A stretch of DNA of 64,000 bases from Elusimicrobiota bacterium (GCA_016182905.1 JACPFR010000018.1:1-64000); one strand, 5' to 3'. Positions 9,001-22,226 are shown, counted from the stretch's first letter. The notes: generated by a model from the sequence alone, not told the origin. Numbers and translations: made by a program.

Positions 9001-12000
9001 AGGTCAAGGCGTCGACGACGGACACCGAGCTCGCGGCCGTGCTGTTGGAAACGGCGTTGTAGTTCGAGCCGCTCGCGAAGCGCCACGCCGTCCCGGGGGT
9101 GTTGGAGGCCAGCGTCACGGTGAAGGTATTGGACGAGGCGCCGGTCGCGAGCAGCCCGTAGAAGGACGCGCTGCCCGCCTGGAAGGTGCTGTAGGACACC
9201 GCCGTCATCGTGCTGCCGACGAGCCACAGGCCGTGCGCGGCCTGGACGGTCACGCTGGAGTAGCTGATCGCGCTGCGGCTCGAGAGACTCACGCCCGCCT
9301 GCCAGATGCGCCCGCCCGAGTCGACGTTCATCGAACTGATCCGGAGGTGGACCGATGAGCCCCAGACGCCGTACTGGACCGCGGCGGTCGGCTTGACGTC
9401 GATGCCGGAAACGTTGACCGAGGCGTTGGCGATCAGGAAGGCCGCCGTCGAGCCCGCGGGAGGCGCCACCACCGGGCGCAGGCCCGACGCCGGGTCGGCC
9501 ATGATGGTGATCGTCGAGCCGCCGACGATGAAGTTGCGCACGGTCACCTGCTCGGCGTAGGTCGCCCCGTCGAGCACGACGACGCAGGCGTGCCCGGTCA
9601 GCGGGTTGGGCAGCGAGTCCACGCCCGCCTGGATGGTGGCCAGTCCCTCTCCCGTCTTGGAGACCAGCGCGCTCGCGGCGCAGCCCGAGTAGGACGCGCG
9701 CGCGGTCTGCGTGGAGCCCAAGGACGTGAAGGACGCCCTCCCGTCCCAGTCGAGGGTCCCGACGCGCAGATAGTAAGTCGCGGGATACGCCAGCCCCGTG
9801 AACGTCAAGGTGCTCAGGCTCATGTTCGGGGTGAAGCTCGAGAGCACGGTCCCCGTGAAGTCCGGCGCCGTGGAGGTCTCCAGCAGATAACCCCGCGCCG
9901 ACTCGGAGGACGCGTCCGGAGGGCTCGACGGACGCGAGACCCAGGTCGCCGTGAACGACGAGCTCCACACCGCCTTGACCGACCCCGCGCTCACGGGCTT
10001 GGCCGGCGAGGACCGGGGGGACCCGCCCGCCGCCGCGTAGTGGGTCGTCGCGCCCACGAGCGAGCCCGCGCGCGCGTGGTAGATCGTGTTGGGGCTCAGG
10101 CCCGAGACGGCCAGGACGGAGGGCACGGGATTGGCGGTGACCGAGGTGAAGACCACGCCCGTGAAGTCCGCGGCGGTGGAGAGCTCGACCATCTGGTTCG
10201 TGCCGTTGGCCGGAACGAAGGAGACCGTGGCGCTCGAGAGATGCAGTCCCGTGAGCAGGATGGACTCGGGGGCCAGGCTGACGGAGCGCGAGGCCTCCGC
10301 CGTCGCGCCGTAGGAGCCCATGTTCGCCGCGGGACCGCGGGGGCTGGTCTCCGCGGCGTACGGCTCTGCCGGGTCCGCGGCGTCGACGACGGGGGAGTGC
10401 GCCGCGTCGGCCGCGAAGGACTGCGTCGCCGGGTTCCAGCGGCCGCCCGTCGAACGCGGGTGGTAGTCCTCGACGCCGGCCGACGGGTCGAACCACTGCG
10501 GATGGGCCGAGATCGAGCCCGCGTCCTTTCCCAACGCCCCCGACCACGGCCAGGCGTAGGCCGCGCCGCCCCAGACCACGGTGTTGGCCGTGTTCGAGCT
10601 GAACCAGTCGTTGTAGTTCGAGTCGAAGCCCGAGGCCGCGTCGGCCGTGAGCGACGCCGAGGAGCCCGTCACCGTCATCGAGGCCAGGAAGACGTTGTTG
10701 CGGATCGTGAGGGTCGAACCGTCCAACTGCAGCAGGTAGGCGTTGGTCAATCCGGTGCCGGTCGAGAGGACGTCGTTGAACTTGAACGCCGTCTGCGTCA
10801 CGCCCGCGAAGTAGGCGCCGACGAAGGAGCCCGCGGTGATCATGTCCGGTTGGCCGATGCGGTTGTGGTCGATATTGAGGTTGTTCGCGCTTCGCGCGAA
10901 CAGGCCGTAGCCGGTGAAGCCGGCTTGCGAGGCGGACCGGCGCCACACGACCGCGTTGTTCTGGATCGTCGCTCCCGTGGTCAAGCCGTCCAGGTAGACG
11001 CCGTAGGTGTCGGCGGAGGCGGAGATCGAGGAGACGATCGTGTTGGAGGTCACCCAGATCTGCGCCCCCGCGGTCTGCGTGGCGATGAAAAGTCCGTAGC
11101 GCGGCCCGGCGAGGAAGGAGTTCGTCGAGATCACGATCAGTCCCGCGTTGCCCGTGGAGAGGAGCAGCGAGTAGCCCTGCGCTCCCGCGCGGAAGGTGTT
11201 CGACGTCGCCGTCACGTCCAGGCTGCCCTGGACGTGGAGAGCGATGCCGGCGCCGCCGTCGGCCTCCAGGCGGCTGCCGGCGATGTAGGACGCCGTGGAG
11301 CGGTAGACGGCGACCGCGGTCGAGCCTTGGACGTACGAGTCGAGGATGGTCGCGCTGGAGACGGACACGGCGAGCGCGCCGTAGCCGCCCGACGTGACGG
11401 TGCTGCGCGTGATCGCGCCGCGGCCGGACTCGAAGCTCACGCCGCGCGCGCCGGAGCCGGAGCCGGGGGCGAGCACGCGCGCGTACTCGACGATGTTGCC
11501 CGAGCCTCCGCCGAAGACCACGGCGCTCTGGTTGTTGGAGTGGAGAGTGCTCGAGCTGACCCGGTTGTCGGTGCCGCTGACGCGCAGCCCGTCGCCGTTG
11601 CCCTGGCAGTACGACTCGGAGAGGAGGTTGCGGCTTCCGCTGATGCTGCAGGCCTGCGCGCTGCCGCTGCTGGAGTTGGAGAAAGTGCTGCGGCGCACGG
11701 TGTTGCTGTTGCCGGAGAGGATGAGGGCGTTGGTGATGCCGGCCGTGACCCCGAAGAGGCCGTCGACCACGTTCATGCTGCCGCTGATCGACAAGGTCAG
11801 AGAGCCTTGCGCCGCGACCGTGCTGCCCGTGAGCGTGTTGTTGCCCGAAGTCGCGTCCAGGGAGATGCCGTTGCCCCAGGTGTCCGTGTTGGACGCGTAG
11901 AAGCCCGTGATGGTGTTCGAAGAGGACGCCAGCAGGTCGACGACGTTCGACGACGCCGCCCGGCTCGCGGCGCTGCTGAAGGAGACGGTGTTGCGATGCG

Positions 12001-14695
12001 AGCCGCTCGCGAAGCGCCACGCCGTCCCGAGCGTGTTGGAGGCCAGCACCACGGTGAAAGTGTTGGACGAGGCTCCCGTGGCGAGCAGACCGTAAACGCC
12101 CGAGCCGCGCGCCGAGAAGGTGCTGTAGCTGACCGCCGTCATCGTGGAGCCGTCGAGCCAGAGGCCGTGGGAGTTCCACGCCGTCACCGAGCTGTAGCTC
12201 ACGACGCTCCACGAGCTGATCCGGATGCCCGCCGTGTAGAAGCCCCGCCCCGTCGTCCCCATGGTGCTGACGCTCACGCTCGAGATCGTCACGTAGGCCG
12301 AGGAGGCCCAGATGGCGTAAGGGATGCTCGAGCCCGAGAGCGAGGCGACGTCGAGCCCGGCGATGACGACCGAGGAGTTCATGATCCGGAACGCCGCGGT
12401 CGACGCCGCGGGCGGCGTCACCACCGGGCGCAGTCCCGACGCCGGATCGGCCATGATCGTGATCGAGGAGCCGTTGTTCGTGAAGTTCTGCACCGTCACC
12501 TGCTCGGCGTAGGTGGCCCCGTCCTTGATCACCACGCACGCGTGCCCGGACAGGGACTTGGGCAGGTCGTCGACGGCGGACTGGATCGTCGTGTAGGGGC
12601 CCGTGCTCTTGCTGACGTTGCGCGCGCTCGCGCAGCCGGCCGGAGGCATGTCGGTCAGCGGCCCGATGTAGTTCGAAGTCGAGATTTTCAGCTCGTCGAA
12701 ATAGGCGGCGTGGGTGACGGCGCCGGCGGCGCTGAAGCCGAGCCCGACGGCGACCCGGTTCCACGAGCCGGCGTCGGAGAGGTCGACTGTGGGGCTCCAA
12801 GCCAGACCCCCGTCGAGCCAGAAGGAGGGATTGACTGAGGCCCCGATGGGGGGAGCGTAGAGCTCGACGGAGTGCCAGGCGTCGGCCGTGACGGGGATGG
12901 AGATGTTGCTGTAGACGCCGAGGCTGTCGAAGACCTCGAAGAGCAATGCCGAGGCGCCCCCGGCGGTCTTCTGGCCGAGGACGCCGGCGTAGCGGCCGTT
13001 GGAGGCGCTGAAGATGTCGGCGAGGTCTTGCTGGTCGCCGTTGGCCATCGCGGAGAAGAAACTCGAGGGCAGATACACGTAGAGGCGCATATACATCTTG
13101 CTCTGACCGGCGGCGAACGTCTTTCGCAGACGGGCGCCGACGCCGACGGTCTTGTCGTGGGAGTAGAGGCCGTAGCCGCCGCGAAAGCTCACCGTCGAGA
13201 GCCGGAGCTCGTTGCCCGCGTCGAGCCAGGTCTCCGCCAGCGGCCAAGCGCCGATGATCGGGTCCTCGTCGTCCAGGCCGTCGTAGGGACGGTTGAAATC
13301 GTCGATGAAGAAGCGCGCCGGCTGGACCTGGACGAAGGTCGCCGTGCTGGTCCCGCCGGGCGCGAGCAAAGAGGCGTCCACCGTCACGGTCGAGAAGCGG
13401 TTGTCGACCTGCTCGGCGACGGTCAGGAGCACTCCCGTAAACGAGTCCGTCGAGACGACGGCCGTCACGGCGGGGCCGGGGTTCAAAGCGTAGCGCGCGG
13501 GGTCGACGAAACGCCCGTCGGCCGTGCTGACCGCCATGTCGAAGTAGACCTTGACCTGGTTGGCGTCGACGACGGAGGCCGACCTGACGGCGGGCGGGTC
13601 TATCGGACCGATGTACGTCACGGTGGAAGTCCGGATCTCGTCGAAATAGGCCGCGTGCGTGACCGTCGCGTCGGCCATGTAGCCGAGTCCCACCGTGACC
13701 GTGCTCCATGAGACGGCGTCGGCGTAGTTGGCCGGAATACGGCCCACGAGCACGCCGTCGAGCCAGAAGGTCGCGCTCGACCCGGCGACCGCGGGCGGGG
13801 CATGCATCTCGACGCTGTGCCAGGCGTCCGCCGTGACGGTGGTCGTGAAGTTCTTGTAGCCGTCGCCGCTGAAGGTCTCCCATATCAAGCGGGGATTGCC
13901 GCCGGCGTCCTTTTGGGCGATGACGCCGACATAGCGCGAGTTGAAGGTGGAGAGGACGTCGACCAGGTCGTGCTGGGAGCCGTTGGCCATCGCCGAAAAG
14001 AAACTCGACGGCAGGTAGACATAGGCGCGCAGATAGACCTGGGTCTGGGCGCCGAAGCGCTTCACCAAGCGGGCCGCCGTGCCCGTCGCCGAGGCGTCTC
14101 GCGACTCGAGTCCGTGGTCGCCGCGCACGCTCCAGGTCGAGAGCGCGACCGTGTTGCCGGAGTCGATCCAGGAGAAAGCCGAGTCCCAGGAGCCCGGGAT
14201 CGCGTCGTTGTCCAGGATTCCGGCGGCGAGGCGGTTGAAGTCGTCGGTGAAGAAGGGGGCGGGATTGACGCCGGCGAAGGTCGCCGTGCTGCTCGCCGAG
14301 TCGAGCGTATTCGCGGAAACCGCCACGATGTTGGACGCCGTCAAAGTGAAGGTCGTGTTGTTCGTCAGCGCTCCGCCGAGGGTGAGCCGGGCGGAGTAGT
14401 TCGAATCCTGCCGCGCGGCCGAGTTGACCGCGATCGAGGGGGACAGGGAGAAGTTCGATGAGCTATCGGCGCTGGCGTCGACGGGCTCGCTGAAGTACAC
14501 CTTGACCGTGCCCGAGCTGATGACGCTGGTCCCGACGACGCGCAAAGTCGCGGCCGCCGCGGCGGCGGGGGGTGACGCGAGGAGCACCGCGACGCCGGCG
14601 GCTATCAGACTCGCGCGCGTATAAAGTAAAGCCGCCGGTCCCTTCCGGAAGAGGAAGCCGGCGACCGGCGACTGCGGAGGCTTAGAACGGATCAT
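1..14695 (-). CDS. Giant exported beta-helix/LamG/PA14/G8 mosaic protein (3' end outside window)
   Basis: One frame stays open from the ATG at 14695 to the left edge, so the protein has at least 4,898 residues and no stop is in view. Residues 1-48 look like a signal peptide (basic start, hydrophobic core, Ala-rich cleavage region). An Ig-like segment (KVYFSEPVD) follows. Two LamG-like domains each open with FF-x-DDFNR (about 135-350 and 450-670). Two near-identical beta-helix modules lie at about 680-1380 and 1665-2380. FN3-like repeats with TYYLRVG or TYYWRV motifs recur near 1480-1660, 2450-2535, 2880-3045 and 4235-4405. A PA14 domain (GLYTFAIDSDDGGFIFVD) sits near 2645-2760 and a G8 domain (LWSQAATWGG) near 3230, followed by a right-handed beta-helix to about 3900. 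The last visible residues are GGGGGAGGGYGGG. These families suggest a surface or secreted carbohydrate-binding or carbohydrate-acting protein; the actual activity is unknown. The very long open frames in other frames here are codon-bias shadows. Confidence 0.9.
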   Translation of the reverse strand, partial: MIRSKPPQSPVAGFLFRKGPAALLYTRASLIAAGVAVLLASPPAAAAAATLRVVGTSVISSGTVKVYFSEPVDASADSSSNFSLSPSIAVNSAARQDSNYSARLTLGGALTNNTTFTLTASNIVAVSANTLDSASSTATFAGVNPAPFFTDDFNRLAAGILDNDAIPGSWDSAFSWIDSGNTVALSTWSVRGDHGLESRDASATGTAARLVKRFGAQTQVYLRAYVYLPSSFFSAMANGSQHDLVDVLSTFNSRYVGVIAQKDAGGNPRLIWETFSGDGYKNFTTTVTADAWHSVEMHAPPAVAGSSATFWLDGVLVGRIPANYADAVSWSTVTVGLGYMADATVTHAAYFDEIRTSTVTYIGPIDPPAVRSASVVDANQVKVYFDMAVSTADGRFVDPARYALNPGPAVTAVVSTDSFTGVLLTVAEQVDNRFSTVTVDASLLAPGGTSTATFVQVQPARFFIDDFNRPYDGLDDEDPIIGAWPLAETWLDAGNELRLSTVSFRGGYGLYSHDKTVGVGARLRKTFAAGQSKMYMRLYVYLPSSFFSAMANGDQQDLADIFSASNGRYAGVLGQKTAGGASALLFEVFDSLGVYSNISIPVTADAWHSVELYAPPIGASVNPSFWLDGGLAWSPTVDLSDAGSWNRVAVGLGFSAAGAVTHAAYFDELKISTSNYIGPLTDMPPAGCASARNVSKSTGPYTTIQSAVDDLPKSLSGHACVVIKDGATYAEQVTVQNFTNNGSSITIMADPASGLRPVVTPPAASTAAFRIMNSSVVIAGLDVASLSGSSIPYAIWASSAYVTISSVSVSTMGTTGRGFYTAGIRISSWSVVSYSSVTAWNSHGLWLDGSTMTAVSYSTFSARGSGVYGLLATGASSNTFTVVLASNTLGTAWRFASGSHRNTVSFSSAASRAASSNVVDLLASSSNTITGFYASNTDTWGNGISLDATSGNNTLTGSTVAAQGSLTLSISGSMNVVDGLFGVTAGITNALILSGNSNTVRRSTFSNSSSGSAQACSISGSRNLLSESYCQGNGDGLRVSGTDNRVSSSTLHSNNQSAVVFGGGSGNIVEYARVLAPGSGSGARGVSFESGRGAITRSTVTSGGYGALAVSVSSATILDSYVQGSTAVAVYRSTASYIAGSRLEADGGAGIALHVQGSLDVTATSNTFRAGAQGYSLLLSTGNAGLIVISTNSFLAGPRYGLFIATQTAGAQIWVTSNTIVSSISASADTYGVYLDGLTTGATIQNNAVVWRRSASQAGFTGYGLFARSANNLNIDHNRIGQPDMITAGSFVGAYFAGVTQTAFKFNDVLSTGTGLTNAYLLQLDGSTLTIRNNVFLASMTVTGSSASLTADAASGFDSNYNDWFSSNTANTVVWGGAAYAWPWSGALGKDAGSISAHPQWFDPSAGVEDYHPRSTGGRWNPATQSFAADAAHSPVVDAADPAEPYAAETSPRGPAANMGSYGATAEASRSVSLAPESILLTGLHLSSATVSFVPANGTNQMVELSTAADFTGVVFTSVTANPVPSVLAVSGLSPNTIYHARAGSLVGATTHYAAAGGSPRSSPAKPVSAGSVKAVWSSSFTATWVSRPSSPPDASSESARGYLLETSTAPDFTGTVLSSFTPNMSLSTLTFTGLAYPATYYLRVGTLDWDGRASFTSLGSTQTARASYSGCAASALVSKTGEGLATIQAGVDSLPNPLTGHACVVVLDGATYAEQVTVRNFIVGGSTITIMADPASGLRPVVAPPAGSTAAFLIANASVNVSGIDVKPTAAVQYGVWGSSVHLRISSMNVDSGGRIWQAGVSLSSRSAISYSSVTVQAAHGLWLVGSTMTAVSYSTFQAGSASFYGLLATGASSNTFTVTLASNTPGTAWRFASGSNYNAVSNSTAASSVSVVDALTLAGSSSNTFTGMFVYNAHGSGRGLNWDSTSNNNAVYNSTVSASGTWVVSINGGMNRLDGVFGPRSGNSNGLSLGGSGNTVLRSTFSTTSGGSAGACALSGSGGLISESYCGGVSGNGVYFTGSNNTVSASRLVTSVASEQAVSFAGGTGNAVEDSFLLSPASGGRGARFLGGRGTIARSTITAAGVGVFFDNISTSTLASSYVQASTAVWVSRSTGTTISGSVLVSTNVMGSALWMDTRGSVNLTLSSSTFIGGPQGWGVNISSQNRGALTLSTITVMGARYGVFVGTQAAGTKVWLTSSTVVVPVTAAFDTYGVRLDGLTSGATLQNNAVVWRGAGSQAGFTAHGLFAQSASSLNIDHNRIGNPDMITAGSFVGAYFAGVTQTAFKFNDVLSTGTGLTDAYLLQLAGSTLTIRNNVFLASMTVTGSSASLTADAVSGFDSDYNDWFSSNTANTLVWGGAAYAWPWSAATGKDADSISSHPHWAAPGAGVEDFHPKTGFVNGRYNPATGLFDLTDAVTSRTIDAGDPAEAYALEPAPNGSRANMGSSGNTAQASLGGRPVPVFPGNGAFASTNRPAFTWSGGNASWRLQVASDAGFSVVLVDSTTANSYAVATTDLPHDATYYWRVNGLTGEWSGAFTVVVDTVAAAESSAPSFRSYSSTSGLLGETQAGDLLTPATAQLSVRDLVSGRGGLAGFMPSLLAELQAVGHSGVATELLAAGAVPLSTEGAAGFFWNAGACPSGAAAGDFANWQGAAAATTFYARVDHQWGAASPMPGVNAGNFTTLFAGWVRTGASGLYTFAIDSDDGGFIFVDRRQVLWDNTTHAAGTQRGGSLVLEGDRLVPFVIGAFDCTGDAALRFYWTPPGGANQIVPASQLRPSPASFVSYSTDAGVSWRVIASTAPSDPARYLYTGAAGSTGEQILTVTGLDLARSTNAVACGGAAPCGATNQVRFHSVDGAFNERVLGPFAVLVPVPIAPVLTAVNLSSLTVAYGLIAADGYRVDASTHSDFSSAVHSSVTANNSLLSLSPQGLLPNTTYFLRAGTLAAGTTVYAAVAPASTSTLTNAVSGLQAAAVYIDSVTLNWLPLPTAAQAGSSSTAEGYLLQASSAPDFTGVVYSSFTPAVGQTTLTLSGLVTASTFYFRVGSLNWNSVAHYAGGISTALPDRLFVTAAGAQTALANSTATALYLGGAFVFAQPGGTTTVSGITIGESGTIDAAARIDNVRLRYDLDVTSPYNCASESYAGTEPQYGATDVDGFSGPDGVSSFSGSVALSSAQTMCVYVVADVVGAAAGQTLELSIANAYTDLVVDPGDLSWPPGPVAIPGATTVSGCLPVVSAASGLWSQAATWGGTAPAECSDVTVSAGHSVTVDVTTAAARGVAVLGTLRASRTAASKLVVAAGDVRVAAGGTLDLGRDGDPIPAGVATELALAPAGADYFGLIVEKGADFTAHGSSKTPFALSSVDALAGATALSVYGSTSVAGWQVGDRLIVGKTEDVAIESSEVSTIAAISGGPAYAVTLEGPLRYSHYALAPVPIGNLDRNVVIRSSSTDFTKAAYVRSLAENATSFALAYAELAWLGTDAPGRYGVTFDGAGTRGSISSSTIMENEYGVYLRQASSVTLTGNVIYRSDYFAVYAQNSAGTRYVGNLFADTLGNVPSLKLYSTGDVLLGNYAVGNDCVGVRMQGDGALFDGNRFVANGCVGLRIYGSGHVVSSNTFIHNGWRGLNVNGDRNVVRGNYAFENSNTSIRVHGKDNLVLANDADASWGQGLRVYGDSTTVKDNVVHGLGGGWWGLGVRQGPKSGSHNGTELGMNNIVVGNHVYDIDGTGLTVAGFNALISKNKVHDVGWGSGAGIRVYGTGHTVTANESYDNIGKGFKISDLSTTGGADWRTRSDAGGDSVFLLNAAYGNTKEGFYDVDARGGNLYVANVSYSNTGDGFAFADKLPVLVGNSAYGNASHGLRLSGTQTGTVLSAGDRWGYDLGGAAVANSTWQISLAGSPSLILQGARVSPALAYSTAGFTTDGRFLLSLDQDLTAGRAVLHGDYLLAGATWELRYADRLYRSTATAAVVRRGSGFSAVVKQVYDAAAVDQLITLEFRAGQWHVDGSATGSDLVPPFNGSRVNLDIPSTSPQVRIDFTDAAPYEGDRLSFALLSASADAGTQKRLLFGRSADGYRGGMSRLRVSTGAALVLEGADGWPTVVDRLSASATYYTVISSGAFSAIRSSFTNADSLGLQLAGSGGVFLSSVTFDYLGIAGGTNAYITARDLVSTATGFVNVRFDVSRSTLASPSAYNVRVEGASSGLLWNFHKPAAGEMWGEDYDDEAGQRVYWSNRPPDPLAVTAVHRTSVTASYASVYAQGYELAASTASNFTGVVFSSSVSGAAQLSLGLPGLDPNTTYYLRAGALWFGTTHYSAAAATATYANPVQSALVFGAWKSSITVNWTPLPTAALEGSSNSASGYRLEASTRSDFGGALISSQTLGVQPSTLTVTGLLLGTTYYLRVASLNHALMPNYVFVGSTATAPGVVVGAFGAQVADAAIGETGVYLGGAFTLRALGGNVTVTALAVSEAGSVNAAANLSNLRLRYETSDACQYDGTEAVYGTAAAFAAEAATVAGSLAVGSAQVCFYAEVDVLAGAANGQTLDLRIANPAVDVAAGGADVSPGTAVDLLDLTTLRTGLVQREFRVYRNADALAPGAALAGVNVPAVLDSFDPVRLRVSARAVGAALGAGAESFQLQWATAASGPWTLVGGGGFGDGRDGAVTLSASGNINTAILGSARSGVPDGAVTTVTADPTGAAVSVAASAGFAPGDLALLINLRGAAGDTADVGNYEIHTVYSVPDSATVLLRKPPQKSYRGTAFANQKVVLQRIPQWTTVAIQSGASLTASPWDGAKGGVLVFAAAQTVTVDAGGSISANGLGYRGGVPASVSGGVSGEWADGVVGKGGSGCINFNCAAGAGSAGGGAGTANDGALNTTAARGGGGGGGHDDRGIRNGGGGGAGGGYGGG
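7360..12640 (-). repeat. In-frame duplication of a ~2.94 kb beta-helix module
   Basis: The DNA at about 7360-9690 and 10300-12640 is the same module twice, offset by 2,934-2,952 bases (exactly 2,940, or 980 codons, around 7621 and 10561). Stretches of over a hundred bases are almost identical, for example 7621-7900 against 10561-10840. The central part of the helix (8100-8900 against 11040-11840) has diverged. FN3-like linkers separate the copies. The near-identity of the ends suggests recent duplication or gene conversion, and such repeats are also prone to assembly collapse. Confidence 0.85.
12690..14290 (-). repeat. Tandem LamG-like domain pair
   Basis: Two copies of a roughly 220-residue LamG-like domain lie 942 bases (314 codons) apart. 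Anchor points are the matching segments at 13041 and 13983 and the FF-x-DDFNR openings near 14250 and 13305. They form the N-terminal part of the giant protein, just after the signal peptide and Ig-like segment. Confidence 0.75.
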
Positions 14696-14786
14696 TTAAG
14701 CTGGCGCAATTGTTCCTTATTGGTGCGAAATTCATGTTTCGTACGCGCACAATTGCAGCGCACTTGAGTATTTACCGTAATATATT

Positions 14787-15267
14787 ATTGCGCATTCTAT
14801 TTGCCCGTCGAACGGCGGATCGACGCCAGGAGCGCCTGGACCCGCCGCAGCCCCAGCTTGACACCCCAGCGCCGGTCGATATAGGCCCGCGCGCTTTTCC
14901 CATCCCAACCGCCAGGAGGCGCCGGCGCGTCCGACGAAGAGCCGCCCAGCACAGCGCGCAGCCGATCGAGCTGATCGGCCGTCAGGCGCGGGCGGCGTCC
15001 AGAATGTTTTTTATCGTTTAATCCATTACATTTATCGCGAACATAACGATTAGTCCAATACTCCACGCTGCGCGGGGAATCGCCGAGCAAACGGGCGGCT
15101 TGGCGGCAGCTGAGGCCTCCCGCCACGAGTAGAACGGCATGGAGACGGTGCAGACGGCGCACCTGCGGCGTCGCGCGCAATTGAGCGCGGATCTGATCGA
15201 AGGCTCCCGGATCCAATCGAATGGCTCTCATGACCAGAGTATACATCGGCAATATAATATGCGCAAT
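14787..15267. mobile_element. Possible minimal IS630-like remnant with terminal inverted repeats
   Basis: An AT-rich segment is bounded by imperfect ~20-base inverted repeats. The left arm at 14787-14805 reads inward ATTGCGCATTCTATTTGCC. The right arm at 15248-15267 reads inward ATTGCGCATATTATATTGCC. The first nine bases are identical and similarity stops at the outer edges. The arms enclose a transposase-type HTH gene whose stop codon overlaps the left arm. No catalytic DDE domain is present and no clear target duplication is visible. The arms could instead be operator sites. Positions 14696-14786 hold only AT-rich sequence upstream of the giant gene. Confidence 0.4.
14797..15231 (-). CDS. 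IS630-type winged helix-turn-helix protein, no catalytic domain
   Basis: The product has 144 residues from the ATG at 15231 (MRAIRLDPGAF); an upstream ATG at 15339 would add 36 residues of unlikely sequence. Residues about 20-65 form a helix-turn-helix (SCRQAARLLGDSPRSVEYW). A Lys/Arg hinge (SGRRPRLT) follows, then a second winged-helix segment (ARAYIDRRWGVKLGLRRVQALL). This is the usual N-terminal half of IS630-family transposases, but the protein stops before any DDE nuclease domain. It is either a truncated transposase or a domesticated DNA-binding protein. It lies upstream of the giant gene on the same strand and between inverted repeats, and its flanks are markedly more AT-rich than the surroundings. 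Confidence 0.7.
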   Translation of the reverse strand: MRAIRLDPGAFDQIRAQLRATPQVRRLHRLHAVLLVAGGLSCRQAARLLGDSPRSVEYWTNRYVRDKCNGLNDKKHSGRRPRLTADQLDRLRAVLGGSSSDAPAPPGGWDGKSARAYIDRRWGVKLGLRRVQALLASIRRSTGK

Positions 15268-15276
15268 CTTTAAATT

Positions 15277-15299
15277 CGTCATATTTGATTTCGATGACG
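15277..15299. promoter_or_regulatory. Candidate operator upstream of the ECF/molybdenum-storage operon
   Basis: An inverted repeat CGTCAT-N11-ATGACG lies just upstream of the -10 box at 15313. Its left arm (CGTCATATT) matches the ModE half-site CGTTATATA at 7 of 9 bases, but the right arm is weaker. Regulation by ModE is a guess from context. Confidence 0.35.
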
Positions 15300-15312
15300 C
15301 TTCCGTGACTGC

Positions 15313-15318
15313 TATACT
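15313..15318 (+). promoter_or_regulatory. Extended -10 box, probable leaderless start
   Basis: TGC-TATACT ends eight bases before the ATG at 15327 and there is no Shine-Dalgarno sequence. Transcription would start at or very near the start codon. Confidence 0.5.
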
Positions 15319-15326
15319 ACGGCGGC

Positions 15327-16508
15327 ATGATCCACTCACCGCGCGCGCGAGTCGGCTGCCTCCTCGCGATCTCGCTGTCGGCCTTCTTCATCGAGGGTCT
15401 GGAGCCGCTGCTGGCACTGGTCCTCCTGCAGGCGGGACTTTGGACGCTCGCGCGCCTGCCGATGAGGGACCTCGCGCGCGCCCTCTCGCGCCTGCTGCCG
15501 TTCTCGCTCTCCGTCCTGATCCTCTTCGCGCTCTTCCCGCCGGAGGGCGCGGGCCCGGCGACGCGCGAATGGACCGTCCTGGGATTGCGCCTGGGCTGGC
15601 ATCCCGACGGCCTCGGCCACGGCGCGCGGATGATCCTGCGCGTTCTCGCCGTCGTCGCCGCGTCCGGCTGGGCGCGGCGCACCGGCGCTCCGGGAGATTT
15701 CGTGGCCGGGCTGCGCGGCTGGCTGCTCCCCGAAGCCGTGGCGGGCACGATCGCCGCGACTTTGTCCATGCTGGACTCGGAGCCCGAGCAACGCGGCGGG
15801 GGAGGAGGCGGAGGGGGCCGCGGTCGGGGCGACGGCGGCGGAAGGAACGCGCGCGCCATGGAAGCGGGCCAGCCCACCTTGCGCCGCATTCTTAAAGGAG
15901 AAGTCGATTTTCTTCCGGGGCTCATCGACTCCTCGGTCGCCCGCGCGCGCGGCCTAGCGTCGGGCATGAGCAGCGCCGAGCTGCGCGACGACGTCGCCGT
16001 GCTCTCCGGCGTCTGCCTGCTCATGCTCGGCGCCAAGCTCGCGAAGATCCTGCCGGGGATACCGTTCGCGCCCGGCTACAAGACCGCGCTCCTGCTCCCG
16101 CTCTACTTCGTCGCCGCCGACCGCACGCGCATGCGCCTCGGCGCCACCGTCGCCGGCACGACCTTGGGCGTGATCTCCTTCCTCTTCGGCGACGGGCGCT
16201 ACGGCGTGTTCGAGATCCTCAAGCACCTGGCGCCCGGCCTTGTCGTCGACGCGGCCGCGCCCGCCTTCGGCGCCCTGCGCGGGCGCACCGTTCCTTTCGT
16301 GGTCATCTCGGCTTTCGCCGCCGCCGCCCGGCTGTCCAGCATACTCGCCGTGGTCTGGCTCGTGGACGGGAACGCCGCGCTCTACGCCGCCGCCGCGCTC
16401 CAGGGCTCGTCCCAATTGGCGTTCGGGGCGGCCAGCGGCGTCGTCGCGGCCCGGCTGCTGCGCGCGCGGGGAAACTCAGCGTCGTCCGAGGAGGAAAGGA
16501 ATGCGTGA
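15327..16508 (+). CDS. Membrane protein resembling a fused ECF transporter T and S component
   Basis: This is a 393-residue polytopic membrane protein. The first half (about 1-210) has an EcfT/CbiQ-like layout: hydrophobic segments at 10-40, 55-70 and 100-115, a helical stretch ending LPGLIDSSVARARG that resembles the RG-containing coupling helices of EcfT, and a Gly/Arg-rich insertion at about 155-172. The second half (about 225-385) has roughly five further membrane segments with PG..VD sequences reminiscent of ECF substrate-binding S components. I infer a T-S fusion that would need an EcfA ATPase encoded elsewhere. It overlaps the first molybdenum-storage-like gene by 8 bases, which suggests metal or cofactor transport. 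The substrate is unknown and the S assignment is the weaker half. Confidence 0.55.
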   Translation: MIHSPRARVGCLLAISLSAFFIEGLEPLLALVLLQAGLWTLARLPMRDLARALSRLLPFSLSVLILFALFPPEGAGPATREWTVLGLRLGWHPDGLGHGARMILRVLAVVAASGWARRTGAPGDFVAGLRGWLLPEAVAGTIAATLSMLDSEPEQRGGGGGGGGRGRGDGGGRNARAMEAGQPTLRRILKGEVDFLPGLIDSSVARARGLASGMSSAELRDDVAVLSGVCLLMLGAKLAKILPGIPFAPGYKTALLLPLYFVAADRTRMRLGATVAGTTLGVISFLFGDGRYGVFEILKHLAPGLVVDAAAPAFGALRGRTVPFVVISAFAAAARLSSILAVVWLVDGNAALYAAAALQGSSQLAFGAASGVVAARLLRARGNSASSEEERNA

Positions 16509-17343
16509 AGAGCGCGCCGCCCTGCGGCAGAAGCACCTTCAGGGAGGACTCAAGGCCGAGTCGCTCATGGACAAGGGCGTCCTGCGCGCGAGCGCGACCG
16601 AGAAGGAGGTGGTCATCCTCCCCGACGTCGAAGTCATCGCGATCGGCGGCGCGAGCATCATGGATCGCGGCGCTTCCGCGATCCTTCCGCTCGTCTCGGA
16701 GATCGCCCGCCTCAAAAAACGGCACAACCTCGTCATCGGCGTGAGCGGAGGAGCGCGCACGCGCCACGTCTTCAAGATCGCGCTCGACCTCGGCCTGCCC
16801 ACGGGAGGGCTGGCGCACCTGGCCGGGGCATCGGAGGAGCAGAACATGAAAATGCTCCAGGCCCTGCTCGCCAAGCACGGCGGCATCTCGATGACCAAGG
16901 ACCACTTCTGGGACCTGCCCCATAAGCTCGCCTCGGGGATGATCCCGATCATGATCGGGATGCCGCCCTATCACTACTGGGAGCAGCCGCCGCGCCGCGG
17001 CCGCCTGCCGATGAACGGGTCCGACTTCGGGCTCTTCGTCTTCGCCGAGACCATCGGCGCCCGCCGCGTGGTCTATCTCAAGGACCAGGACGGCCAGCAC
17101 GAGGCGGACCCGAAGCGCGTCCCCCGCGCCGAGCTCCTGCGCCGGGTCTCGGCGCGCGACCTGCTGCGCCTGCCCGACGAGGACCTGATCGTGGAGCGCA
17201 TGGCGCTCGAGACCATGCTGAGCGCGCGCCACGTGCGGGAGATCGTCGTGACCAACGGTCTGAAGCCGGGCTCGCTGACGAAGGCCCTCGCCGGACGGAG
17301 CACGGGCACGGTGATCTATGCCCCGAAGGAGGCCGGACGATGA
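16501..17343 (+). CDS. mosA: Molybdenum storage protein-like subunit (alpha type)
   Basis: This 280-residue protein has an amino-acid-kinase fold. In Azotobacter the MoSto alpha/beta heterohexamer packs polyoxomolybdate clusters using ATP. Visible motifs are GGASIMDRGASAILPLV near residue 45, the glycine loop GVSGGARTRH near 80, the family-typical MPPYHYWE near 155, and LKDQDGQHEADPKR near 190. The start is the ATG at 16501 behind a strong GAGGAAAGGA ribosome site. It overlaps the upstream membrane gene by 8 bases and the next subunit by 4. Its N-terminal ~45-residue extension relative to the partner matches the alpha/beta length difference known for MoSto. A UMP-kinase-like activity is the alternative, but the pair and the Mod genes nearby favour storage. 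Confidence 0.75.
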   Translation: MREERAALRQKHLQGGLKAESLMDKGVLRASATEKEVVILPDVEVIAIGGASIMDRGASAILPLVSEIARLKKRHNLVIGVSGGARTRHVFKIALDLGLPTGGLAHLAGASEEQNMKMLQALLAKHGGISMTKDHFWDLPHKLASGMIPIMIGMPPYHYWEQPPRRGRLPMNGSDFGLFVFAETIGARRVVYLKDQDGQHEADPKRVPRAELLRRVSARDLLRLPDEDLIVERMALETMLSARHVREIVVTNGLKPGSLTKALAGRSTGTVIYAPKEAGR

Positions 17344-18077
17344 AGACCAGCCCGATCGTGCGCATCCTGCCGGACGTGCACGTCCTCAAGTTCGGCGGAC
17401 AGAGCGTGATGGACCGCGGACGCGCCGCCGTCTACCCGCTCGTCGCGGAACTCGCGCGCCTCAAGCGCGGCCACCGCATGATCATATGCTCGGGCGGCGG
17501 CACGCGCGCGCGGCACGCCTACGACATCGCCCTGGGCCTCGGGCTTCCCACCGGAGTGCTGGCCGCGCTCGGCGAGGCGCCGCCGCGCCAGAACGCGCGC
17601 ATGCTCCAGATGCTCCTGGCCAAGCACGGCGGCGTCTACATCATGCCCGACGATTTCGACAAGCTCCCGCTGTATCTCGCGATGGACTGCCTGCCCATCA
17701 TGAGCGGCATGCCGCCCTACGACTACTGGGAGAAGCCGCCGATGGGCGCGCGCATCCCGGCGAACCGGACGGACTCGGGCACCTACCTGACCGCCGAATA
17801 CCTCGGCGCGAAGTCCCTGACCTACATCAAGGACGTCGACGGCCTCTACACCGCCGACCCGAAGAAGGACCGAAAGGCGACGCTGATCCCGCGCATCAGC
17901 GTCTCGGAACTCCTGGCGCTCGATCTGGGGGACCTGGCGCTGGAGCGCGTCGTGCTCGAGAACATGCGGCACGCGCGCCACATGACGAGCCTGCGCATCA
18001 TCAACGGCCTCAAGCCCGGCAACGTCGCCAAAGCGCTCGCCGGGAAGAACGTCGGCACTTTCATCTATCGCGATTGA
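17340..18077 (+). CDS. mosB: Molybdenum storage protein-like subunit (beta type)
   Basis: This 245-residue amino-acid-kinase family protein is clearly paralogous to the preceding subunit. Shared motifs are GGQSVMDRGRAAVYPLV, the glycine loop CSGGGTRARHAYD, MPPYDYWEKPP and IKDVDGLYTADPKKD. The last is the nucleotide-binding segment best kept in UMP kinase relatives. The ATG overlaps the upstream stop as ATGA, so the two subunits are translationally coupled, as expected for a heteromeric complex. In the known family the beta-type subunit binds ATP. Both subunits end in almost the same motif (GLKPGN/S-x-x-KALAG), supporting duplication from one ancestor. Confidence 0.75.
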   Translation: MKTSPIVRILPDVHVLKFGGQSVMDRGRAAVYPLVAELARLKRGHRMIICSGGGTRARHAYDIALGLGLPTGVLAALGEAPPRQNARMLQMLLAKHGGVYIMPDDFDKLPLYLAMDCLPIMSGMPPYDYWEKPPMGARIPANRTDSGTYLTAEYLGAKSLTYIKDVDGLYTADPKKDRKATLIPRISVSELLALDLGDLALERVVLENMRHARHMTSLRIINGLKPGNVAKALAGKNVGTFIYRD

Positions 18078-18102
18078 CAACCCGGGGAAGGGCGGATATC
18101 AT
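18074..18102 (+). promoter_or_regulatory. Sigma70-type promoter, leaderless
   Basis: TTGACA at 18074-18079, a 17-base spacer and TATCAT at 18097-18102, then six bases to the ATG at 18109. The -35 box overlaps the stop codon of the previous gene, so the small exported protein may be transcribed separately from the storage operon. Confidence 0.6.
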
Positions 18103-18108
18103 CCTGCT

Positions 18109-18600
18109 ATGAGAATCTCCCTCGCGACGCTCCTCGTCCTCCTGGCCCTTCCCGCGCCGTGCGGCGAGCCGCCCAAGCCCCGGACGGCCGCGCCGGAGGC
18201 GGTCGGAGCCGAGGAGAACGCCCGCCAGCGCCGCGACAAGCACGCCGAGCACCGTCAGAAGATGTCCGCGCTCCACGACGAATTCCGCGCCGCGAAGACC
18301 CGCGAGGAGCGCGCGGCGGTCCAGGAGCGCATGCGGGGCCTGCGCCGCGAGCGCAAGGAGCAGATGCGCCGATCCGGACGCACCGGCGGCGACGAGTCCT
18401 CGTCCGAAGGCCGCGGCAACGGCCGGGGCGGAGGCCGGGGAAAAAGGCAAGGCGGGAACGGCGATGGAGGCGGACGGGGAGACGGCAGCGGCGGCGGACG
18501 ACGCGCGCCCAAAGCCGCGTCGCCGGCCCCGCCCGCGGATCCCGGAACACCCGCTGCGCCGGCCGATCCCGACAAGCCGGCGAAACCCGCGAAGCCCTGA
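18109..18600 (+). CDS. Small exported Arg/Gly-rich protein in the molybdenum island
   Basis: This 163-residue protein was not recognised. Residues 1-18 form a short hydrophobic signal sequence ending near APCGE; a Cys is present but the lipobox is not canonical. Residues about 35-90 are a highly charged predicted helix (for example KHAEHRQKMSALHDEFRAAK). Residues about 95-135 are Gly/Arg-rich low complexity, and the tail is Pro/Ala-rich. The helical part resembles the charged helices of periplasmic Spy/CpxP-type proteins only in composition. It sits between the storage genes and modE, convergent with modE with a 6-base gap. A role in metal handling is possible but is context only. Confidence 0.55.
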   Translation: MRISLATLLVLLALPAPCGEPPKPRTAAPEAVGAEENARQRRDKHAEHRQKMSALHDEFRAAKTREERAAVQERMRGLRRERKEQMRRSGRTGGDESSSEGRGNGRGGGRGKRQGGNGDGGGRGDGSGGGRRAPKAASPAPPADPGTPAAPADPDKPAKPAKP

Positions 18601-18606
18601 CCGAGG

Positions 18607-19386
18607 CTAGACGTTCACGCCGAGGATGATGCTGCCGGGACTGACGCTCGCCCGCACCGTGCGGCCGGGACGCAATGACAGCCTCTTCGCTGCCGCCTCG
18701 GCGAGCACGGCGACCAGAGGCGCCCCGCCGGGCAGGCGGACCAGGACTTCGGTGTTGACCTTCCCCGGAGAGAGCCTCTCGACGCGGCCGGCGAAGACGT
18801 TGCGCGCGCCGGCGGAGGGGACCGAGCCGCCCGAGGAGAGGAGGACCCACGAAGCCTTGACCAGCGCGAACGCCGACACGCCGCGCGCCAAGCCGAGTTC
18901 ACGCACGCTCTCATTGGTGATGACGGCGACGAGGCGGTCGCCGCCGCGTAGAGCCAAGGCCACCTCCGTGCTGATCTCGCCGCGCCGCAGGCCGGACACC
19001 ACGCCGAAGAACTGGTTGCGCGCCGAGGTCCGCATCGAAAGCCGGCGAAGCCAGCCGAGCAAAGGGGCCAGTTCCCCGGCCTTCCCGCCGAGCCCGCGCA
19101 GGAAGCTCAGGCGTTCCTTGTCGACCGCGCGGAAGGCCGCGACGAGCTTGCGGCCCTTGGCGGTCAGCCGGGTGCCGCCGCCGCCCGCGCCGCCGGCGAC
19201 GCGCTCCACGAGGGCTTCGTCCGACGCCGCGTTCAGGGCCGACACGGCGTCCCAGGCCGCCTTGTAGCTCAGCCCGACCGCGCGCGCCGCGGCCGTGATC
19301 GAGCCCAGGGCGCCGATGCGCTCGAGCAGGCCGAGCCTGCGGCGCAGCAGCGCGTCGACGTCGCGGGCGCCTCTCTTGCGCGCCAT
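18607..19386 (-). CDS. modE: ModE-type molybdate-responsive regulator
   Basis: This is a 259-residue transcription factor. The N-terminal winged helix (about 15-110) shows the LysR-like HTH typical of ModE (GSITAAARAVGLSYKAAWDAV). The C-terminal half has two Mop/TOBE molybdate-binding domains, starting near SARNQFFGVVSGLRRGEIST and near GARNVFAGRVERLSPGKVNT. Molybdate-bound ModE usually represses modABC. Here the gene is the third of a modB-modC-modE operon: the ATG overlaps the modC stop by one base. A near-perfect ModE box lies upstream of that operon at 20734-20757, so autoregulation is likely. Confidence 0.92.
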   Translation of the reverse strand: MARKRGARDVDALLRRRLGLLERIGALGSITAAARAVGLSYKAAWDAVSALNAASDEALVERVAGGAGGGGTRLTAKGRKLVAAFRAVDKERLSFLRGLGGKAGELAPLLGWLRRLSMRTSARNQFFGVVSGLRRGEISTEVALALRGGDRLVAVITNESVRELGLARGVSAFALVKASWVLLSSGGSVPSAGARNVFAGRVERLSPGKVNTEVLVRLPGGAPLVAVLAEAAAKRLSLRPGRTVRASVSPGSIILGVNV

Positions 19387-20036
19387 CAGGAGCGGGCCGC
19401 CACCCGCCCGCCGGACAGGACGAGCACGGTCGTCGACAGCCTGGAGATTTCACCTCGGTCGTGGCTGACCAATAGCGCCGTGAACTTCCTGGCGCGATGC
19501 AGGCGCAGGAGCTCGTCCTGCAGCTCGGCGCGCGATTCCTCGTCGAGGGCGGAGAGAGGCTCGTCCAGGAGGAGCAGCCCCGGCTCCGGCACGAGGCCGC
19601 GCGCGAGCGCCACCCGCTGCTTCTGTCCGCCCGACAGATTCGCGGGGTAGCGGCGCGCCAGCGAAGAGAGCCCGGCGATCTCGAGCATGGCGCCCACCGC
19701 GGCCGCGTCCTGGTCCGGGCGCAGGGCGAAGCGCAGGTTCTCCTCGACCGTCATGTTGGGAAAGAGCGCGTGGTCCTGGAAGACGAAGCCGACACGCCGG
19801 CGCTGAGGGGGCTCGTCCACTCCGCCCGCCGCGTCGAACCAGACCCGCCCCGAGCACTCCAGCCTGCCGGCGTCGGGGCGGGTCAGGCCCGCCAGCATCC
19901 GAAGAATCGTGGTCTTGCCCGCGCCCGAGCGGCCGAACAAGGTGGTCACGGCGCCTTGCGCCAGCTCGAAGTCGGCCTCGAGGAGCTGGGCGCCGTCGGT
20001 CGTGTCGAGGGTCTTGCGCAGGCTCGCCTTGAGCAT
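19386..20036 (-). CDS. modC: Molybdate ABC transporter ATP-binding protein
   Basis: The product has 216 residues. It shows Walker A (GRSGAGKTT) near residue 37, a Q-loop (FVFQDHALFPNMTVEEN), the signature LSGGQKQRVALARGL, Walker B LLLLDEPLSALD and the switch His in SHDRGE. It is shorter than the roughly 350-residue E. coli ModC because the C-terminal Mop domain is absent; ModE supplies the only Mop domains in this island. The start ATG at 20036 overlaps the modB stop by one base and the stop overlaps the modE start, so the three genes are tightly coupled. Confidence 0.92.
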   Translation of the reverse strand: MLKASLRKTLDTTDGAQLLEADFELAQGAVTTLFGRSGAGKTTILRMLAGLTRPDAGRLECSGRVWFDAAGGVDEPPQRRRVGFVFQDHALFPNMTVEENLRFALRPDQDAAAVGAMLEIAGLSSLARRYPANLSGGQKQRVALARGLVPEPGLLLLDEPLSALDEESRAELQDELLRLHRARKFTALLVSHDRGEISRLSTTVLVLSGGRVAARS

Positions 20037-20707
20037 CAGAGCACCTCGACGGGACGGCGGCGATAAATTTGAAGCGCCAACAGGACCGGTAAAGTCACGG
20101 CCAGGAGGATCAGCGCGTGCCGGTGCGCCATGGCGTAGTTCATCGATTCGACCTCGGCGAAGATGGCGATGGAGGCGACCCGGGTCCGGCCGGGGATCGA
20201 GCCTCCGATCATCAGGACGACGCCGAACTCGCCGATGGTGTGAGCGAAGCTGAGGACCGCGGCGGTCAGCACGGCCGGCCGCACGTTGGGCAGAAGCACC
20301 CGCCAGAAGGTCTCCCAGCGGGTCTTCCCCAGGACATAGGCCGCCTCGGCGAGCGAGGGGGGGAGAGCGGCGAGAGCGGTCTCGATCGGCTGGACCATGA
20401 ACGGAAGGCTGTAAAACACCGAGCCGATGACGAGCCCGGGAAAGGAAAAGACGAGACGCAGGCCCAGGACGCTCTCGAGCCACCGCCCGAACGGTCCCGC
20501 CGGGCCGAGCAGCATCAGGAGGTAGAATCCGAGCACCGTCGGGGGCAGGACGAGGGGGAGGCTGACCAGGGCGTGGACGAGCGGACGCAGGCGGCTTCGG
20601 CTGAAGGCCAGCCAGTAGGCGAGCGGGAGCCCCACGACGAGAAGGACGGCCGTCGTCGCGGCGGCCAGCTCCACGGACAAGGCCAGGGGCTGCCAGAAGC
20701 TCGTCAT
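20036..20707 (-). CDS. modB: Molybdate ABC transporter permease
   Basis: This 223-residue inner-membrane permease has about five transmembrane helices and a BPD_transp_1 coupling loop (EAAYVLGKTRWETFWRVLLP) with the EAA motif. The segment GRTRVASIAIFAEVE near the C-terminus is characteristic of ModB. The start chosen is the ATG at 20707 (MTSFWQP), which gives the normal family length; the frame is open further upstream but that would read through the shared promoter. It is divergent from modA with 52 bases between the starts. Confidence 0.92.
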   Translation of the reverse strand: MTSFWQPLALSVELAAATTAVLLVVGLPLAYWLAFSRSRLRPLVHALVSLPLVLPPTVLGFYLLMLLGPAGPFGRWLESVLGLRLVFSFPGLVIGSVFYSLPFMVQPIETALAALPPSLAEAAYVLGKTRWETFWRVLLPNVRPAVLTAAVLSFAHTIGEFGVVLMIGGSIPGRTRVASIAIFAEVESMNYAMAHRHALILLAVTLPVLLALQIYRRRPVEVL

Positions 20708-20724
20708 ATCGTCAGGGCCGGGGC

Positions 20725-20757
20725 TTGACGCATCGTTATGTATAGTAGTATATAACG
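20725..20757. promoter_or_regulatory. ModE box and modA promoter (divergent control region)
   Basis: CGTTATGTA (20734-20742), a TAGTAG spacer and TATATAACG (20749-20757) form an inverted repeat with 8 of 9 positions symmetric, matching the known ModE operator CGNTATATA-N6-TATATAACG. It lies inside the modA promoter: TTGACG at 20725-20730, an 18-base spacer and TATATA at 20749-20754, so bound ModE would block RNA polymerase. The same site lies between modA and the modBCE operon and could control both. Confidence 0.88.
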
Positions 20758-20759
20758 GT

Positions 20760-21527
20760 ATGGAAATCCAGGGGCAGGCGAAACACCTGCTGCTCGCCCT
20801 CGCGCTTCCGGGCTTCGTCCGGGCCGCCCCAGCCGAATCGCTCTCCGTCGCCGTCGCCGCGAACATGATGCCCGTGATGGAGGAGATCCGCCCGGGCTTC
20901 CTGGCCGAGACCGGCGTCGACCTCGTCCTCACGCCCGGCGCGTCCGGGAAGTTCGTGGCGCAGATCGAGAACGGCTCGCCGTTCGATCTTTTCGTGTCGG
21001 CCGACATGGAATTTCCCGAGAAGCTGTTCCAGGACGGCTTCGCCGCCGCCAAGCCGGACCGCTACGCCACGGGCACCTTGATCCTTTGGACCCTCAAGAA
21101 AATGGACCTCTCCCAAGGACTCTCCGCGCTCAAGGACGCGTCGATCGTGAAGATCGCGCTGGCGGACCCCGTGACGGCGCCGTACGGAAGGCAGGCGGAG
21201 GCGGCGCTCAAGGCCTCCGGCGTCCATGACGCGGTCTCCGCCAAGCTGGTCTACGGCGAGAGCCTCGGCCAGGCGAACCAGTTCATCACCACGCGGGCCG
21301 CCGACGCCGGCTTCACCGCCCGGTCCATCGTGGAGACGGCGCAGTGGAAGGACAAGGGCGTCTGGGTGGAGGTCGACCAGGCGCTCTACACGCCGATCGA
21401 TCAGGGGCTGGTCATTCTCAAGCACGGCGCCCGGAACAATCCAAAGCTCTCCCGCCGTCTCAGGAACTACATTCTGGGCCCGAAGAGCCGCGCCGTCCTG
21501 AAGCGCTACGGCTATCTCCTTCCCTAG
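20760..21527 (+). CDS. modA: Molybdate ABC transporter substrate-binding protein
   Basis: This 255-residue periplasmic binding protein has a signal peptide (about 1-22, LLLALALPGFVRAA). Family motifs are SVAVAANMMPVMEEI, the oxyanion-loop region TPGASGKFVAQIENGSPFDLFVSAD, and LADPVTAPYGRQAEAALKASG. Length is normal for ModA. It is split from modBCE and read divergently, with the ModE box ending two bases before the ATG. The promoter spacing predicts an mRNA starting at the ATG, without a leader. No Shine-Dalgarno sequence is visible. Confidence 0.92.
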   Translation: MEIQGQAKHLLLALALPGFVRAAPAESLSVAVAANMMPVMEEIRPGFLAETGVDLVLTPGASGKFVAQIENGSPFDLFVSADMEFPEKLFQDGFAAAKPDRYATGTLILWTLKKMDLSQGLSALKDASIVKIALADPVTAPYGRQAEAALKASGVHDAVSAKLVYGESLGQANQFITTRAADAGFTARSIVETAQWKDKGVWVEVDQALYTPIDQGLVILKHGARNNPKLSRRLRNYILGPKSRAVLKRYGYLLP

Positions 21528-21533
21528 CCGGCT

Positions 21534-22226
21534 CTAGGGGCGGAAGAGGTAGCCCACGCGGATCACGGTCTCCACGTGGGCGCCGAAGGCGGGAAGCTTT
21601 TTGCGCAGGGATTCGACGTGCTTGTCCACGGTGCGCGTGGACATGTCGGGCTCCGTGTCCCACACTTTTTCGAGCAGCATGCCCCGGGTGACCACGCGCT
21701 GGGGATGGCGCAGGAAATACGCGAGCAGCTTGAACTCGAGATGCGTCAACGTCACGGGCTTGCCCGCGACCTCGACGCGGTGCTCGTCGAGGTAGACCGT
21801 CATGTCGATGAAGCGCAGGCTCTCCGACGGCGGCGGCGCCGCCGCGGCCGCGGGCCTGCGGCGCAGCAGCCCCGCGACGCGCACGACGAACAATTCCAGA
21901 TCCAACGGCTTGCCCATGTACTCGTCGGCGCCGAGCTCGAGGCTCTTGATCACGTCGGGCGTGGCGCGCTCGGAAGCGGTGATGGCCAGGATCGGCATCC
22001 TCTTGGTGGCCGCGTTCTCGCGCAGGACGCGGATCACGTCGCGGCCATGGATCCCGGGCAGCTTCATGTCGAGGACGCAGAGGTCGGGCAAGGTCTTGTC
22101 CAGGGAGTCGAGGAAACGCCCGGGAGTGGCGTAGGTTTTCACCTCGTAGCCGCTCTTGCCCAGAACCAGCGCCACCAGGCCGAGCATCTCTTCGTCGTCG
22201 TCGACGACGGCCAGCTTCGCCTTCAA
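21534..22226 (-). CDS. OmpR-type response regulator
   Basis: The product is 230 residues if the start is the TTG at 22226, which overlaps the upstream stop as TTGA. The receiver domain (about 1-120) has the acidic pair DDDEE, the phosphoacceptor Asp in VLDMKLPG, the conserved Ser/Thr in ITASERAT and the Lys in GKPLDLE. An Ala/Pro linker follows. A winged-helix effector (about 140-228) has LTHLEFKLLAYFLRHP and DKHVESLRKKL. No ATG lies at a sensible distance. No histidine kinase is adjacent, so the partner is unknown. It forms an operon with the single-domain receiver upstream. Confidence 0.88.
   Translation of the reverse strand: MKAKLAVVDDDEEMLGLVALVLGKSGYEVKTYATPGRFLDSLDKTLPDLCVLDMKLPGIHGRDVIRVLRENAATKRMPILAITASERATPDVIKSLELGADEYMGKPLDLELFVVRVAGLLRRRPAAAAAPPPSESLRFIDMTVYLDEHRVEVAGKPVTLTHLEFKLLAYFLRHPQRVVTRGMLLEKVWDTEPDMSTRTVDKHVESLRKKLPAFGAHVETVIRVGYLFRP

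Follow-up and report, generated by a model that had tools for sequence, protein, structure and literature searches.

A molybdenum island with uptake, sensing and probable storage genes in one Elusimicrobiota bacterium genome

Results

Gene content and organization of the island

The stretch of DNA analyzed here (the window) comprises 64,000 nucleotides from an Elusimicrobiota bacterium and carries, at about 15.3-21.5 kb, a molybdenum island with genes for uptake, sensing and probable storage of the metal (Table 1). All genes named in the original prediction, namely two encoding proteins similar to the molybdenum storage protein (MoSto), modA and modBCE, are present close to the positions given there, and the idea of a molybdenum homeostasis island is borne out, as MoSto-family proteins occur here together with uptake genes and with ModE and its operator. 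Besides, the region contains two genes that had not been named, TS and a small ORF.

Overlapping ends (8 bp between TS and w1, 4 bp between w1 and w2) together with good ribosome-binding sites in front of w1 and w2 argue that TS, w1 and w2 very probably form a single operon, while it is uncertain if the small ORF is part of it. On the minus strand, modB, modC and modE each touch the next gene.

Table 1. Features of the island and its left border, with positions counted from the first nucleotide of the window.
Feature	Position	Strand	Description
Giant open frame	2-14695	-	about 4900 codons
IS630-like fragment	14797-15339	-	helix-turn-helix fragment at the island's left edge
Inverted repeat CGTCAT-N11-ATGACG	15277-15299		perfect 6-bp arms; 27 bp ahead of the start of TS
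TS	15327-16508	+	CbiQ/EcfT-like N-terminal domain and second membrane domain; heads the operon
w1	16501-17343	+	divergent MoSto-like subunit with amino-acid-kinase fold; Ala at MosA K45/MosB K42, His at MosA H156
w2	17340-18077	+	MoSto-like (MosB-side) subunit; catalytic-site Lys kept
Small ORF	18109-18600	+	predicted secreted, basic, Arg/Gly/Lys-rich; without family match
modE-like	18607-19386	-	HTH and two Mop/TOBE domains
modC	19386-20036	-	ATPase domain only, without C-terminal TOBE domain
modB	20036-20707	-	molybdate ABC permease
ModE box ATCGTTATGTATAGTAGTATATAACGGT	20732-20759		divergent modB/modA promoter region
modA	20760-21527	+	molybdate-binding protein, divergent from modB

Molybdate transport and regulation

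ModA (168 bits, TIGR01256, cut-off 62.5) and ModB (232 bits, TIGR02141, cut-off 183) exceed the NCBIfam cut-offs; ModC stays below (217 bits, TIGR02142, cut-off 285) and matches residues 5-213 of the 353-residue model. The ModE-like protein passes the cut-off of the Mop model and scores below those of the full-length model PRK10676 and of the ModE domain. The box ATCGTTATGTATAGTAGTATATAACGGT in the modB/modA gap shows two mismatches to the Escherichia coli ModE consensus ATCGNTATATA-N6-TATATANCGAT (PMC545781), and a match of this quality was obtained in 0 of 100 shuffled sequences. The inverted repeat ahead of TS is a weak match to the consensus and differs from the modB/modA box; it may serve as a second operator, for ModE or another regulator. 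A search of positions 14600-21700 returned no molybdenum riboswitch or other RNA family. The uptake and regulation parts of the island are ordinary.

w1 and w2 belong to the MoSto superfamily in the broad sense

Profile searches assign both w1 and w2 to the amino-acid-kinase fold (PF00696). Among all PDB sequences, the best match of either protein is MoSto beta (E 3.4e-58 for w1, 1.9e-73 for w2), followed by MoSto alpha, and since these values are far ahead of those for UMP kinases (E 4e-4 and 1.6e-10, respectively), the likeness to MoSto is not due to chance. The predicted model of w1 (pLDDT 86, built with 29 relatives) aligns to MoSto chains with Z 34-35 (34.8 to 6rj4_B) and an rmsd of 1.9-2.6 over 240-256 residues, compared to Z 25.8 for a UMP kinase. 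Clustering of the two kinases with UMP kinases, the outcome that had been named as speaking against a MoSto identity, was not seen, as UMP kinases form a separate clade and the MoSto family is set apart from them with a support of 100/100. Both proteins are members of the MoSto superfamily in the broad sense.

A scan of genome contigs yielded 17 genuine MoSto loci (L010-L026), to which Azospirillum plasmids and six further Chloroflexota genomes were added later. The view of MoSto as a speciality of Azotobacter does not hold, as the scanned loci come from six phyla (Acidobacteriota, Myxococcota, Chloroflexota, Planctomycetota, Cyanobacteriota and Pseudomonadota). Each of three trees places the MoSto family clear of archaeal UMP kinases and resolves the clades A and B as well as a third group, which consists of seven single-gene Chloroflexota proteins, the Chloroflexota pair L162 and w1/w2. 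Within this group w1, a long branch (1.45-1.56), and w2 are mutually nearest with moderate support (91-93/67-79), and they branch together outside both the MosA and the MosB clade. A tree with w1 among the MosA sequences is rejected by the AU test (p 0.0085), which rules w1 out as a MosA orthologue. Judged from these trees, the pair w1/w2 is not orthologous to MosA/MosB; of the predicted alpha and beta subunits, the two MoSto-family genes stand, and the assignment to alpha and beta gives way to a separate branch. They probably arose when a MoSto-like gene was duplicated independently, which is likely and not proven because the support for the pair is only moderate.

The single-gene Chloroflexota relatives (L020, L022, L023, L024, L159-L161) are the closest clade to w1/w2 and resemble the island in the metal-oxyanion transport neighbors of several members, but have one gene instead of two and TupABC, DUF134 and NifX-like neighbors instead of modE. 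A DUF134 neighbor recurs repeatedly and a NifX-like one often beside L020, L022, L023, L024, L159 and L161, and TupABC-like tungstate transport genes adjoin several of these single genes (tup genes in L020, L023 and L161); modABC adjoins the MoSto genes in L013, L015 and L026. The pair L162 shares with w1/w2 the paired paralogues, the side of the tree and a His at position 156 in one member, but has an ABC exporter between its genes, the catalytic-site Lys in both proteins and no adjacent mod genes. Directly upstream of mosBA we observed a SAM-dependent methyltransferase gene (confirmed in L016 and L018), or a gene with a similar starting motif (L011, L014, L015, L016, L018, L021, L025). MosB relatives on Azospirillum plasmids (L145:8905-9717, L147:6905-7717) adjoin mosA, and their annotation as uridine (monophosphate) kinase is likely wrong.

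Ligand and active-site residues

MosA and MosB of Azotobacter vinelandii (PDB 2ogx, 4f6t, 6rj4) are the best match by sequence and fold, with about 40% identity to w1/w2 over the whole chain; they are likewise tandem paralogues with an amino-acid-kinase fold. In contrast to them, w1 and w2 have modABC/modE and an ECF-like gene as neighbors, and they differ at key residues. In Azotobacter MosA, octamolybdate is bound covalently via His156 and Glu129 (PMC4504029). At MosA positions 129, 130, 140 and 156, w1 has T, K, K and H, and w2 has M, P, Y and D, so that the His at 156 in w1 is the sole match to the ligands E129, H156 and H140. E129, H130, H140 and HHH156-158 are kept in the classic A subunits (Azotobacter, Azospirillum, Chloroflexota L163 and L164), but are missing from the non-classic A subunits; non-classic B subunits carry Glu at 129 and none of the histidines. 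Lack of the cluster-binding residues, the other outcome named beforehand as speaking against MoSto, thus applies to most of these positions in w1/w2, yet it applies to most of the family too. In consequence, w1/w2 may have another cluster chemistry or may no longer store metal.

At the position of MosA K45/MosB K42, Ala is found in w1 only; the other 45 MoSto relatives of the alignment all have Lys, and w2 has Lys as well. In MosA of the Azotobacter type, Glu takes the place of the Lys normally found at 190. Each system therefore has one subunit with an altered active site, by different substitutions, and this common pattern suggests that w1 is a non-catalytic partner of w2. Since the PDB holds the MoSto variants K42S-beta and H156A, both positions have already been studied.

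The TS membrane protein

The N-terminal half of TS matches profiles of CbiQ/EcfT from ECF transporters weakly but repeatedly: i) TIGR02454 with E 3.8e-8, below the curated cut-off, ii) PF02361 with 24.6 bits (cut-off 25) and iii) EcfT structure chains with E 0.0015. Unlike CbiQ/EcfT, TS is fused to a second membrane domain, and no ECF ATPase gene lies within the island. The second half has no match among Pfam families and is weakly colinear (25%, pairwise p 0.012) with an S-component-like protein encoded close to the lone MoSto gene in L020, a locus that also has a separate T protein and an ATPase. Direct BLAST and phmmer comparisons of TS with the Chloroflexota ECF proteins gave no significant match, and an AlphaFold model from two sequences was too poor for a fold search (pLDDT 43). 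TS resembles a fused T+S membrane protein of ECF transporters, in which the second half would be the S domain.

The sole relative of TS that we found is encoded in Bradyrhizobium erythrophlei GAS478 (38% identical, E 8e-47). Its gene lies 14 kb from mosB, beside a moeA that is divided between two ORFs, with modABC in the vicinity; the chance of such proximity to mosB in this 11.7 Mb genome is about 0.002. Plasmids and 384 other Alphaproteobacteria contained no further relative, and in the 10 other MoSto genomes tested no match rose above noise. Because the B. erythrophlei genome was picked for having MoSto and TS is absent from these other genomes, the link between TS and MoSto is suggestive, not general. 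This region (L142/L143) resembles the island in combining a TS-type fused protein, modABC and mosBA within about 17 kb, but differs in its MosA/MosB of the ordinary non-Azotobacter type and in the moeA and RND efflux genes in between, and no modE was seen there.

The island is an insertion specific to this genome

w2 occurs in one of 199 genomes of the phylum, and TS in one of 44 genomes of the family; ModB is found in two of these 44, the second being only distant. Within the genus, the flanks are conserved: they comprise a response-regulator pair, two hypothetical genes and GroES/EL, of which the regulator pair and GroES/EL are 83-97% identical and in the same order in the nearest same-genus genomes. 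As the island genes are nearly absent from relatives and the flanking genes are conserved, the segment between about 15.3 and 21.5 kb is a genome-specific insertion. Contamination of the contig is ruled out by these flanks and by the GC3 of the island genes (0.84-0.93), near the flank mean of 0.92; this host-like composition implies either a donor similar to the host or a stay long enough for the genes to adapt.

To the left of the island, the giant frame probably encodes a repetitive surface protein and has same-place counterparts in L121, L123 and L124 of the same genus; in most relatives examined, the giant surface-protein gene adjoins the response-regulator pair. In three relatives without the island (L119, L120, L125), an IS630-like remnant lies between the two, at the site that corresponds to the similar fragment bordering the island here.

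Molybdenum users in the host

The host genome encodes MoaA, MobA and MoeA (the latter in L116), while MoaC (PF01967) was not found in it. As molybdoenzymes it has a NapA-like protein and a type II DMSO-reductase-like enzyme with an iron-sulfur subunit, the alpha subunit of which is split over two frames (L116:11275-14678, G000:C5) by a frameshift or an assembly error. Five relatives without the island have orthologues of the NapA-like protein (91-97%), so that the molybdenum demand probably predates the arrival of the storage genes.

In addition, the genome contains five NifH-like and 15 NifD/K-like genes, clustered densely with radical-SAM genes (L007 and L008, G000:C45:20001-52893; L009, G000:C5:256000-270525), and some of the NifH-like proteins (780 and 874 aa) carry additional fused domains. 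Eight nif-like proteins from several gene sets were tested, and all fell well below the curated cut-offs (NifH-like 214-275 bits against 394, NifDK-like <50 bits against 320-530); a genuine nitrogenase is therefore not needed to explain the island. The original prediction of either nitrogenase or heavy molybdoenzyme use is thus upheld for molybdoenzymes and not for nitrogenase, and of the moa/moe genes suggested for a genome search MoaA and MoeA emerged and MoaC did not, together with nif-like genes below cut-off. Nitrogenase-like clusters have reportedly been described from groundwater Elusimicrobia, and the sets seen here may be related to them.

Discussion

Based on our data, we consider it likely that the region is a horizontally acquired, ModE-controlled island for uptake and storage of molybdate. 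ModABC would import molybdate, as is known for its family, and molybdate-bound ModE would act at the box in the modB/modA gap to repress modA and modBCE. w1 and w2 would assemble into a heteromeric cage similar to MoSto: ATP hydrolysis by w2 would drive molybdate, or tungstate, into the interior, and w1 would act as non-catalytic structural partner. The fused ECF-like TS from the same operon may provide a second import route or feed the store, and the stored metal would go to the molybdopterin enzymes of the host. Within this scheme w1 and w2 are a variant within the MoSto family, for which metal storage is the probable role. This explanation is weakened by the loss of most ligands of the Mo8 cluster and of the Lys in w1, by the missing MoaC and by ModC and ModE scores below some cut-offs.

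The same residues bear on the question whether w1/w2 still store metal. If the cage chemistry has been lost, they could act as an ATP-dependent molybdate chaperone or sensor instead, which would fit the loss of the E129, H130 and H140 equivalents in both proteins, of the catalytic-site Lys in w1 and the long w1 branch. However, most of the wider family does without these ligands and has nevertheless kept paired genes and molybdenum or tungsten gene neighbors, and the w1 fold appears intact in the predicted model, so that we regard loss of storage as unlikely. Storage of mainly tungstate or another oxyanion is only somewhat easier to envisage and still rather unlikely: the nearest clade in the tree is the single-gene Chloroflexota type with TupABC-like neighbors in L020, L023 and L161, and Azotobacter MoSto itself takes up tungsten (PMC6448029), but the transporter genes of the island are those for ModABC, accompanied by modE, and MobA and a NapA-like enzyme are encoded in the host.

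That the stored molybdenum supplies a FeMo-co-like cofactor of the nitrogenase-like enzymes of the host is suggested by the many NifH- and NifD/K-like genes sharing the genome with radical-SAM clusters and by the donation of molybdenum from Azotobacter MoSto to FeMo-co synthesis (PMC6448029). Yet their scores fall far short of those of nitrogenase proteins, molybdenum use by such enzymes is a supposition, and MoaA, MobA and MoeA together with the NapA-like and DMSO-reductase-like enzymes represent a simpler demand, which makes this destination very unlikely. A UMP kinase identity of w1/w2 is ruled out by tree, sequence and fold. The wider notion of UMP or other small-molecule kinases as mere neighbors of the mod genes could draw on the shared PF00696 fold and the uridine kinase label of the Azospirillum MosB relatives; given the fully supported clade of UMP kinases and their far lower scores by sequence and fold, it is hardly credible.

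Within the uptake-and-storage island, TS is the most novel and least certain part. Its reading as an undescribed ECF-type importer of molybdate or tungstate, working with a cage from an independently duplicated MoSto-like gene, is possible and rather doubtful. If true, two-subunit MoSto cages with one catalytic and one non-catalytic subunit would have evolved more than once.

In a 2019 study, MoSto was described as having no known homologues (PMC6448029). In contrast to this statement, the MoSto family occurs in hosts from at least six phyla, in a single-gene, a classic two-gene and an apparently independent two-gene form. As most members are without the Azotobacter ligands, the residues truly required for metal storage become testable. 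Finally, a rare ECF-like membrane protein accompanies MoSto genes in two lineages without close kinship, which suggests a possible new route of molybdenum import.
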